Shown here: positions 56,651 through 59,221 of the stretch, one piece after another
How the letters are laid out: every line of letters begins with the position of its first letter
Position numbering within the stretch: position 1 is the first letter of the stretch
Origin: Akkermansia sp. RCC_12PD
GTDB taxonomy: Bacteria > Verrucomicrobiota > Verrucomicrobiia > Verrucomicrobiales > Akkermansiaceae
Assembly: GCF_036417355.1 (NCBI RefSeq)
Contig: NZ_CP143889.1
Coordinates: 620,001-684,000, forward strand
Direction: 5' to 3'
Length of the DNA: 64,000 nt
Position numbers and translations under genes: made by a program
Notes under the pieces: generated by a model
Database searches by the model: none
Seen by the model: only the letters and a program-made list of their open reading frames with translations
Told to the model about the DNA's origin: nothing

Positions 56651-57250
56651 ATGTCGGGCCCCATTGATTATACGACCCTGGAAGACACTGAACTGGTCGC
56701 CAGAGCTCGGGAAGGAGATTCTCGTGCTTTTGACGAGCTTGTGATCCGCCACAGCCGTAAGCTTCATGCCACGCTGTACCAAATGACGGATAACTACGAC
56801 GATGCCTATGACATCGCGCAAGAAGCGTTTTCCAAAGCCTACAGGGCCTTGCGCTACTTCAACGGTCAAAGCGCGTTTTACACATGGCTTCATTCCATTG
56901 CCGTCAACCACGCCAGGAACTTCCTGAAAAAGCGCAACCGCAGAATGACCTACAGTCTGGACGACGACGAATACGGCGACCATACGGAAAAGGATATGAA
57001 CATGGCGGATGAAACGGACGGGGCGGACCCCGAACGCCGCACTCATTTAAACGAACTTCAGCTCAAGATCAATGAAGCACTCAAAAAGCTCTCCACGAAA
57101 CACCGTGAAGTTGTGGTTCTGCACGATGTCAAAGGCCTTAATCATACGGAGATTTCCGCCCTTCTCGGCATCTCGGAAGGAACACTCAGATCCCGATTGC
57201 ATTACGCCCACAAGGAACTCCAGGGATTGCTGGCGGAATATCTGAGCTAA
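56651..57250 (+). CDS. ECF-type RNA polymerase sigma factor
   Basis: The 199-residue protein has region 2 (AFDELVIRHSRKLHATLYQM, DIAQEAFSKAYRALRYFNGQ, FYTWLHSIAVNHARNFLKKR) and region 4 (HREVVVLHDVKGLNHTEISA, GISEGTLRSRLHYAHKEL), and lacks region 3, as ECF sigma factors do. It directs RNA polymerase to a small regulon. The linker between the regions is long and acidic. The next two genes on the strand are a single-span membrane protein and a degenerate HtrA-like protein, a layout like sigma/anti-sigma/protease stress modules. Confidence 0.93.
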   Translation: MSGPIDYTTLEDTELVARAREGDSRAFDELVIRHSRKLHATLYQMTDNYDDAYDIAQEAFSKAYRALRYFNGQSAFYTWLHSIAVNHARNFLKKRNRRMTYSLDDDEYGDHTEKDMNMADETDGADPERRTHLNELQLKINEALKKLSTKHREVVVLHDVKGLNHTEISALLGISEGTLRSRLHYAHKELQGLLAEYLS

Positions 57251-57300
57251 TGCGTTAAAAAATATTGAACACTGCATCCTGCTGGCCTGTCAAACGCTTA

Positions 57301-57316
57301 GTCCTAGAATCAGGAC
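57301..57316 (+). repeat. Short inverted repeat downstream of the ECF sigma gene
   Basis: GTCCT and AGGAC are spaced by 6 bases in the 105-base gap between the sigma gene and the membrane-protein gene. It may be an operator or weak terminator. Confidence 0.3.
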
Positions 57317-57355
57317 CAAACACCCTAACCCATATCATACACAAAATCAACGACG

Positions 57356-57859
57356 ATGGATAAACAATCCACAGAACAAAAAGAGGAAACTCTGGTTGCC
57401 ATGCTGGCGTCCTTCCGTAAGGAAGCTTGTTATCATGACAATTTTGAAGAAGATTTCCTCCGCAATTTTCATCTGAGAAAGGAAACCGATCAGGCTACTC
57501 AATCTACTTGGAAATTGTTGCTCGAACGCCTGGACAACTATCTGCAAAACTTTAGAGGTTGGCAGTGGATATACGCGTCCATGTCCATCGTGACATTGGC
57601 GGCCGTAGGCGTTATCATAGCGTCTGGGGACATGGAACCGGCGGACGCTTACGTATCTGCCCCCCGTATCCCCGACGGGAAACTTCAACCCGTTAGCGAG
57701 GAAGAAGTAGAAACAACCTCAACTGACGGAGCGGCCGGAGCGACAACAACGCTCACCACGGAGGTCCCGTCTAACGAAACATCGATCAAAGAAAATCAGC
57801 TACAGACTGATTCCAATACCGATGACAAACCGGTATCCCGAGTTCTCATTGAGATGTAA
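57356..57859 (+). CDS. Single-span membrane protein, possible anti-sigma partner
   Basis: I do not recognise the family of this 167-residue protein. Residues 1-67 are charged (FRKEACYHDNFEEDFLRNFH, then a helix). One membrane helix follows at about 69-90 (IYASMSIVTLAAVGVIIASG), then a Ser/Thr/Glu-rich outer tail. This N-in, one-span layout and position after an ECF sigma gene fit an anti-sigma factor, but there is no HxxxCxxC zinc motif. The stop overlaps the start of the next gene (TAATG), so translation is coupled. Confidence 0.7.
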   Translation: MDKQSTEQKEETLVAMLASFRKEACYHDNFEEDFLRNFHLRKETDQATQSTWKLLLERLDNYLQNFRGWQWIYASMSIVTLAAVGVIIASGDMEPADAYVSAPRIPDGKLQPVSEEEVETTSTDGAAGATTTLTTEVPSNETSIKENQLQTDSNTDDKPVSRVLIEM

Positions 57860-58743
57860 TGCTCATTATGAACTTGGTGGTTCCCATATTAGCAGGCATA
57901 GCCGTCGCAGGCATTATTCAGCAAGCGGCGGCCGTGCCTGCTCCTTTTAAAGTAACGGCTGTTCCGCAGCAGGCAAACGGGGAATCATACACGACCCTGG
58001 CCGCACAGACAAGCAACGGCTTTATTGCCGCCCTGATCCCTTACAGGGTTTTTAAAAACGGAGCTGTAACCTATCACCTGGACGGCAAGGAGACACCGCC
58101 CCTCCAAGTATGGGCGCAGGAAAAGCTTACGGGATTGACGCTGTTCAAGGTAAATCCCTCCCTTCTCTCCGGCACATCCCCTTCCATCGCCGCAAACGCC
58201 ACCCTCAGACGGGGAGCCAGGCTTGCCTTCACCAACAGCGAGAATGAACCCACGCTAGGTATTTATGTGGGCATGGAGCACTCCATAGGGGACATCAGCT
58301 TTCCCTTGCGCCTTATCCGCGCTCAATTCCCCAAACTGGCAGCACCGCCGATCGGCCAGCCGTGCTATGATGCAGACAACCGTCTTGTCGGCATCGTCCT
58401 GGGCGTCTCCCGCAAAGGCACCTGCCATCTTCTGCCGGCCCAGGCCATCTCTTTCCTGGCAGAAAATCCCAAAGCCAAACGGGTGCGGCTGGGCTGCCTG
58501 CTGGACATCAACTCATCCACCCCCGTCATTGAAGGAATTATCAATGGTGGCCCACTGGCACGCGGCGGCATCCAGACCGGAGACATTCTCATGAGCATCA
58601 ACAACGTTCCCATCCGCAACTATGGAGACATGCTGGACGCCACCTACTACCTGACAGGGGAAAAAACCCTGACCATCCAGGTCATCCGCGGAACCCAGAT
58701 TGTGGAAAGCAAAGGCATCATCCCCACGCAGGATCCCCGCTGA
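57859..58743 (+). CDS. PDZ-domain protein with a degenerate HtrA-like protease domain
   Basis: The 294-residue protein starts with a hydrophobic signal or anchor (LVVPILAGIAVAGIIQQAAA). The region at about 35-200 resembles a trypsin-like fold, but where HtrA/DegP has GNSGGP it has PPIGQPCYDADNRLVGIVLG, with no serine at that position, and I see no clear His-Asp pair. A PDZ domain follows (LGCLLDINSSTPVIEGIING, GDILMSINNVPI, about 205-290). It is translationally coupled to the membrane protein upstream. It may be a non-catalytic sensor that binds unfolded outer-membrane proteins. Confidence 0.8.
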   Translation: MLIMNLVVPILAGIAVAGIIQQAAAVPAPFKVTAVPQQANGESYTTLAAQTSNGFIAALIPYRVFKNGAVTYHLDGKETPPLQVWAQEKLTGLTLFKVNPSLLSGTSPSIAANATLRRGARLAFTNSENEPTLGIYVGMEHSIGDISFPLRLIRAQFPKLAAPPIGQPCYDADNRLVGIVLGVSRKGTCHLLPAQAISFLAENPKAKRVRLGCLLDINSSTPVIEGIINGGPLARGGIQTGDILMSINNVPIRNYGDMLDATYYLTGEKTLTIQVIRGTQIVESKGIIPTQDPR

Positions 58744-58852: not shown

Positions 58853-59221
58853 GTGCTTCAAATCGTCTTCAATAAAATCAGTGCCGCGGAAATATCCCGT
58901 ATTCCCACGCTGGAACAACTGGACCTGCTGGGAGAATTCCAGGTTTCCGAATCCATGCTTCAAACGCTGGATGACACCCGTTTCGGCAAAATGGAAAAAG
59001 ACGGCAAAACGCTTTACCGTTACGTGGCCAAGGACTACCGAATCTATTTTGAAGTCATTGACGGAAAAGTGGTCGTTCACCGCGTACTGCATGCCAACAG
59101 CCTGAACGACTTTTTATTCCGCACGAACATCTCTCCTACGGCGGGAGAAGATGAAATCCTCAGCCAGTCCAAGCATTTCTGGAAGCTGATCGACGAAGGC
59201 AAAAACTCCTCCAAAGCCTGA
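58853..59221 (+). CDS. RelE/ParE-fold-like small protein
   Basis: The 122-residue product starts at a GTG (58853) just after AAAAAGGGG. Its centre, YRYVAKDYRIYFEVIDGKVV, follows the RelE/ParE toxin pattern (YR--V--YRI-YE--DG-VVV), then VHRVLHANSLNDFLF. The N-terminal 55 residues (PTLEQLDLLGEFQVSESMLQ) are not toxin-like. No antitoxin gene is adjacent, so it could be a domesticated relative or a regulatory protein. It is 12 bases upstream of coaC and probably cotranscribed with it. The family call is an inference from one motif. Confidence 0.55.
   Translation: MLQIVFNKISAAEISRIPTLEQLDLLGEFQVSESMLQTLDDTRFGKMEKDGKTLYRYVAKDYRIYFEVIDGKVVVHRVLHANSLNDFLFRTNISPTAGEDEILSQSKHFWKLIDEGKNSSKA

Follow-up and report, generated by a model that had tools for sequence, protein, structure and literature searches.

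A three-gene cassette of Akkermansia encoding an ECF sigma factor, a candidate anti-sigma factor and an HtrA-fold pseudoprotease with a PDZ domain

The genome of Akkermansia sp. RCC_12PD consists of a single 3.17-Mb contig, of which a 64,000-nucleotide stretch (NZ_CP143889.1, positions 620,001 to 684,000), referred to here as the window, was analysed. Nucleotides 56651-58743 of the window include three genes on the + strand, named g1, g2 and g3, which code for an ECF sigma factor, a protein with one membrane span and a protein with an HtrA fold and a PDZ domain, respectively. The initial annotation of this DNA had placed the cassette at the correct coordinates. The gene upstream of g1 is, as we read its frame, presumably purF. 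Just downstream of the cassette there is a ParE-like ORF (58853-59221, + strand) that scored 22.4 bits against a cut-off of 23, and similar frames are found beside the cassette in loci L010 and L011. The named near relatives in the genome collection are four Akkermansia records and one Akkermansiaceae MAG.

The first gene, g1 (56651..57250, + strand), codes for a 199-amino acids protein that matches TIGR02937 with 104.2 bits (cut-off 42.9) as well as the Pfam families Sigma70_r2 (55.4 bits) and Sigma70_r4_2 (48.2 bits), both over their cut-offs, in agreement with its earlier assignment as an ECF sigma factor. Its score against TIGR02939, the model for RpoE/sigmaE equivalogs, is 132.7 bits, below the curated cut-off of 236.15. 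The protein was matched in 92 of the 97 genomes searched, its own included (E <= 1e-30).

The product of g2 (57356..57859, + strand) is a 167-amino acids protein for which no Pfam or NCBIfam family, and thus no curated anti-sigma family among them, was found above cut-off. The AlphaFold2 model (m9d316d91a648) has a mean pLDDT of 72.7 and a pTM of 0.31, and therefore only its local structure was used. DSSP analysis of this model gave helices at residues 4-20, 30-64 and 68-89, the last of which is the predicted membrane helix (57557..57622), with disorder from residue 90 onward. None of the 66 members of the g2 profile family (A2) has a second strong membrane segment, and in 56 of them the net charge is higher before the span than after it, with 8 ties (Wilcoxon 5e-11). 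This bias across the span indicates that the N-terminus lies inside and the C-terminus outside. The family has a conserved N-terminal block and the zinc motif HxxxCxxC is found in 0/66 members, so that the description of g2 as a one-span protein that lacks the zinc motif, has an anti-sigma-like layout and is encoded beside g1 holds. Absence of the motif leaves class I membership possible, because about 44% of class I anti-sigma domains lack Hx3Cx2C according to PMC7406223; RseA and RskA are zinc-free members of the class. The relation of g2 to this class, to which it shows no profile match above cut-off, rests on a homologue from another class of bacteria (L442:2211-2864, − strand). This homologue lies beside an ECF gene and has an HxxxCxxC motif just before the LKRYEQPP block common to the g2 family. 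A Pfam scan named no zinc-finger in it, and it appears to stand midway between anti-sigma factors with zinc and those without. Taken from sequence comparison, g2 is likely the anti-sigma factor of g1, to which it would bind.

The third gene, g3 (57859..58743, + strand), codes for a 294-amino acids protein with a hydrophobic N-terminus, either a signal peptide or an anchor, where the AlphaFold2 model has a pLDDT below 50 (residues 1-22). Only PDZ models of Pfam and NCBIfam scored above cut-off; the core of this domain encompasses residues 223-273 (58525..58677; PDZ_6, 33.5 bits, cut-off 27). The HtrA-like part is visible only by profile and fold. An 18-row g3 profile, A1, matched a DegP-like chain over almost its full length (E 6.6e-38), and the AlphaFold2 model (pLDDT 84.2, pTM 0.80) superimposed on DegP (VIA Z 23.0, rmsd 3.3, 264 residues aligned) and on DegS with a YQF peptide (Z 20.0, rmsd 4.9, 268 residues). 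The profile and fold matches comprise DegP, DegQ, DegS and AlgW, including peptide-bound structures of DegS and AlgW, which confirms that g3 combines a PDZ domain with an HtrA-like domain. Its score against the DegS model TIGR02038 was 18.6 bits, with a cut-off of 422.95.

An intact Ser-His-Asp triad in g3, which the initial annotation had named in advance as evidence against its reading, was sought by alignment and is absent. In the window protein the places of the catalytic serine, histidine and aspartate are taken by I165 (codon 58351..58353), P61 and G92. The loss extends over the family: a serine is found at the serine place in 2 of 109 distinct g3 proteins, all of which (109/109) keep the glycine that follows it; an aspartate at its place in 1 of 107 aligned proteins; and a histidine in 0 of the 39 that align at that place, 70 being gapped there. 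The active site has therefore been lost in the g3 family as a whole, rather than in a single decayed gene. The GxSGG string occurs in 0 of 12 class-level g3 proteins, and the one present in the g3 of L269 is located away from the serine place. The Trypsin_2 cut-off (27.6 bits) was reached by all three of these 12 class-level g3 proteins that were scanned (64.5-66.4 bits) and by neither the window protein nor five order-level ones. A search for g3-like frames elsewhere in 21 genomes, most of them without an adjacent g3, gave matches in 16 (E <= 1e-12); the best reached 86.9 bits and the frames span 202-814 amino acids, and on score and length we take them to be other HtrA/PDZ proteins.

The stop codon of g2 (TAA, 57857-57859) and the ATG of g3 (57859) share one base, which makes the translational coupling that had been proposed plausible in this strain; a second in-frame ATG is located 9 nt beyond the first. 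In other genomes, the first possible g3 start ranges from overlap to 162 nt past the g2 stop.

Within the genus, g2 was matched as a single protein in 36 of 59 genomes. Twenty of these g2 loci were examined; ten have the order g1-g2-g3, two have g1-g2 without g3, and in the remaining eight (L013-L020) g2 has no sigma gene nearby and lies beside a gene that we take, by reading of the frames, to be hemA. Another 22 genus loci, retrieved by way of their sigma gene (L119-L140), all lack a g2 beside that gene. At the order level, 35 loci around the best g1 match were taken from 35 of 38 genomes (G059, G074 and G079, in which the sigma match is absent or weaker, were left out); a g2-family frame adjoins g1 on the same strand in 35/35 and g3 is third in 8/35. 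With profile A1, matches at E <= 1e-15 were obtained in 183 of the 386 genomes of the order; those at the weak end are longer frames that resemble ordinary DegP-type proteins. Around the stronger g3 matches the three genes are on one strand in 102 of 106 loci, a set that excludes about 17 unfetched matches of more than 97 bits, weaker or partial. Three of the exceptions (L211, L217 and L266) have g3 with neither g1 nor g2 in the stretch examined; in the other (L228:229-1903, − strand) g1 is followed directly by g3 and no g2 was found between them. The 66-row g2 profile matched 298 of the 386 order genomes (E <= 1e-4) and, in a sample of 288 genomes from across the phylum, 65 (E <= 1e-6). In L429-L443, which come from further families within the class or the phylum, g1 is beside g2 in 15/15 loci and g3 follows g2 in 12/15. 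The expectation that the three-gene order recurs in relatives was thus borne out, and since the order is conserved across genera in which the sequences have diverged, the cassette is more than a chance arrangement. Its persistence in class- and phylum-level loci indicates that the module is old.

The C-terminal tail of g2 in the window, VLIEM-COOH (57842..57856, + strand), belongs to a conserved type of end. The last residue is F, L, M or Y in 114 of 115 g2 proteins followed by g3, compared to 17 of the 54 ECF-linked ones that have no g3 (Fisher 5.7e-23, a value that ignores kinship). After identical ends were merged (120 to 103), 102 of 103 distinct g2 proteins with g3 showed such an end (F 65, L 26, M 9, Y 2; the exception is L271), as did 12/12 class-level ones; L341, where the contig ends beside g2, was left out of the counts. 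The entropy falls from about 3.1-3.5 bits at positions -5 to -12 to 2.5-2.8 at the third- and fourth-last residues and to 1.4 and 1.6 at the final two, so that conservation is confined to the end. The residue before the hydrophobic one is mostly acidic, a preference that the class-level ends do not fit. The 17 proteins without g3, which comprise 13 of 50 plus L433, L438, L442 and L444, end in F, L or Y; eight of them come from two genera of the same family (ends KF, KL, RF, AF, TF) and others are, for example, L339 with REL. The hydrophobic end is therefore not tied to g3 alone. Relocated g2 proteins, unlinked to g1, were kept out of this group; their ends are hydrophobic in 5/8 of L013-L020 and 1/4 of L445-L448. 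To take kinship into account, independent contrasts were drawn on the sigma-gene tree, which has seven supported pairs that differ in g3. The motif [EDV][FLMY], defined after the data had been seen, is associated with g3 in a mean of 5.0 of 7 pairs, with 0.0 opposing (median p 0.0625); for the plain hydrophobic end the mean is 3.3 of 7, again with 0.0 opposing (median p 0.25). An earlier run with fewer rows gave four pairs, 2.8 with g3 and 0.0 against. The contrasts are few; none oppose the association and none are significant at the median. In L433, L438, L353-L355 and L336, which lack g3 and belong to different families, g2 (ends KF, KL, RF) is followed by the same short gene, by our reading presumably YjbQ-like.

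The gap between g1 and g2 includes a promoter-like element, TTGAAC-N18-GTCAA (57265..57293, + strand). It is present before g2 in 12/12 genus loci with g1-g2, with constant N18 spacing and a spacer that varies in sequence (on average 6.3 of 18 positions are identical among seven divergent loci), and it arose in 5 of 240,000 mononucleotide shuffles. The related pattern TTGAAC-N17/18-GTC precedes 11 of 12 g2 genes located away from the sigma gene: 7/8 in a first set and 4/4 in a later one, which was held out as a check and had no part in defining the pattern. As a control, the 12 relocated loci were searched on both strands (80,858 bases); the pattern occurred 12 times, 11 of them before g2, and the remaining occurrences predict 0.004 per stretch searched. 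Even where it no longer lies by the sigma gene, g2 has thus retained an element of the sigma type. In the relocated loci (L013-L020, L445-L448), which belong to genus members with small genomes, the pattern follows a T-run. Outside the genus many g1-g2 gaps are shorter than the element would need, and occurrences in L431-L433, L438, L442 and L444 were left uncounted because they overlie the sigma gene and, as we read them, resemble its coding sequence. We infer that g1 reads the element before g2.

The exact TTGAAC-N18-GTCAA is found at a rhomboid gene (G000:C1:1180831-1180859, L154) in 12 of 14 genomes checked, that is in 12/12 close and 0/2 distant ones, which makes this gene a candidate target and perhaps the source of a protease that cuts g2. 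A site at an HtrA gene (G000:2139782) was dropped as a target because no more than 3 of 12 close genomes retain it. A whole-genome regulon was also considered and rejected: in five genomes TTGAAC-N17/18-GTCWA gave 47 matches versus 22 for the reversed pattern, a mild excess (6 versus 6 in G053), 21 of the 30 matches examined out of the 47 lie inside a frame of at least 80 amino acids on either strand, and, of the sites followed across genomes, those at g2 and the rhomboid gene proved to be conserved. Further intergenic matches are located in L143, L148, L158 and L168 (G045) and in L146 (G017).

The gene order, the loss of the triad, the topology bias, the promoter-like element and the conserved tail, all seen in the sequences, lead us to consider it reasonably probable that the cassette is a module for envelope-stress signalling: g2 would act as the anti-sigma factor, and g3, itself unable to cut, would attach to the C-terminus of g2 through its PDZ domain. 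PDZ domains bind the C-terminal residues of their targets, as described in PMC8103513; the sequence recognised by DegS is YxF, and AlgW recognises SVRDELRWVF, the end of MucE (PMC8545111). Because such domains read C-termini and the g2 end is conserved together with g3, the sequences point to the g2 C-terminus as the first ligand of the g3 PDZ domain. In this module g1 would be held by the membrane protein g2, whose N-terminal helices would lie in the cytoplasm and whose single span would lead to a disordered tail on the outside with a short hydrophobic carboxy terminus; g3, a secreted HtrA relative unable to cut, would bind this terminus and cap or hold g2. Stress would remove the cap, the preferred trigger being competition for the PDZ domain by YxF ends of unassembled outer-membrane proteins, and uncapped g2 would become accessible to cleavage by site-1 and site-2 proteases, with the consequent release of g1. 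The genome encodes an M50 site-2 protease homologue (152.2 bits). In Akkermansia, g1 may also drive g2-g3 from the element at 57265-57293, a negative feedback. Competition, uncapping and proteolysis are the weakest steps of the proposal. The gene order, the lost triad, the zinc-free one-span partner and the non-cutting HtrA-like protein of the earlier interpretation are retained, while the first ligand proposed for the PDZ domain is the g2 C-terminus instead of misfolded porins.

The partnership of g3 and g2 could also work in the opposite sense. As a positive adaptor, g3 would shield nothing and its PDZ domain would carry g2 to a true protease of the cell, HtrA or the rhomboid. The exact element at the rhomboid gene in all close genomes agrees with such a role, as does an HtrA of the genome whose Trypsin_2 domain scores 90.6 bits, but the HtrA element is poorly kept and g3 sits with the anti-sigma gene, which we regard as the usual spot for negative regulators; we consider an adaptor somewhat unlikely. 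The g2 end could instead be bound by another PDZ protease, DegP-like or a site-2 protease, g3 being a general periplasmic chaperone that is in the operon by happenstance. That 17 of 54 g2 proteins keep the hydrophobic end without g3, with long HtrA-like frames in those of their genomes that were checked, would be explained in this way. However, the other 37 lack the end, although long HtrA-like frames are found in three of their genomes that were checked (G101, G190 and G229) and an HtrA in G045, so this explanation appears unlikely.

Two further alternatives concern g2 itself. Its end might be conserved only as codons that hold the g3 ribosome site: with g3 starts assigned mechanically, 56 of 100 distinct junctions have their first ATG or GTG at most 15 nt past the g2 stop, and the codons for REF or REL can encode GGGAG. 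Yet in the 24 junctions where the start is more than 25 nt away, 24/24 still end in F, L or Y, synonymous codons of the end vary, and GGAG-like sites are found in 18/56 near, 0/20 middle and 6/24 far junctions. The distant junctions and the varying codons largely refute this cause, which we regard as very improbable. It is also improbable, if less so, that g2 is a separate membrane protein of the operon and not the anti-sigma factor of g1. Such a role would suit a protein that no curated anti-sigma family matches and that lies away from g1 in part of the genus, but it leaves unexplained the pairing with g1 in all order-level loci, the sigma-type element kept after relocation and the homologue with HxxxCxxC.

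The sigmaE-RseA-RseB-DegS system of E. coli and AlgU-MucA-MucB-AlgW of P. aeruginosa likewise include an ECF sigma factor, a one-span anti-sigma factor and a periplasmic HtrA protein with a PDZ domain, as described in PMC8103513 and PMC8545111. In both, a catalytically active HtrA member makes the site-1 cut and its PDZ domain binds porin or MucE ends, whereas here this member lies in the operon without a triad, and it is the anti-sigma candidate that bears the PDZ-type end. DegS and AlgW are encoded outside the sigma operon. The gene order rpoE-rseA-rseB-rseC is given in PMC4336711. RseB and MucB, like the proposed g3, are non-catalytic periplasmic partners encoded after the anti-sigma gene, but they have lipid-binding domains according to PMC8545111, and g3 combines an HtrA fold with a PDZ domain. 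While they cap RseA and MucA, the cap proposed for g3 would differ from them in fold and would dock at a C-terminus. CnrH-CnrY-CnrX is a three-gene system with a periplasmic sensor, CnrX, which senses metal and has a fold other than that of g3. Its ECF factor is paired with CnrY, a class II anti-sigma factor (PMC8103513). Among the PMC papers searched, no title or opening of an abstract described an HtrA pseudoprotease paired with an anti-sigma factor, although the main ECF reclassification may list such a context, and none joined 'Akkermansia' with 'ECF sigma factor'. If correct, the module would be an envelope-stress pathway of a large part of the phylum, including the gut commensal Akkermansia, and would show how a protease sensor can be retained for binding alone. 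Whether an HtrA PDZ domain is able to regulate a sigma pathway in the absence of catalysis becomes a directly testable question. The cassette also marks two protein families of the window beyond curated models: g2 and, within g3, the degenerate HtrA domain.

Ends of outer-membrane proteins are a possible signal here, as in the sigmaE and AlgU systems (PMC8103513, PMC8545111). Among 16 autotransporter matches in the genome, 15 end in F and 13 in YxF, and unassembled outer-membrane proteins could for this reason offer a competing ligand. A broader view is possible, if doubtful, and we put it forward tentatively: an ancient switch across the Verrucomicrobiota in which the pseudoprotease reads an anti-sigma carboxy terminus that mimics an outer-membrane-protein end. 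Unassembled outer-membrane proteins would then vie with this terminus for one PDZ groove, and the switch would sense them through displacement instead of cleavage. Three of the autotransporter genes (L391, L392 and L393) code for the same 30 C-terminal residues, which points to recent copying.
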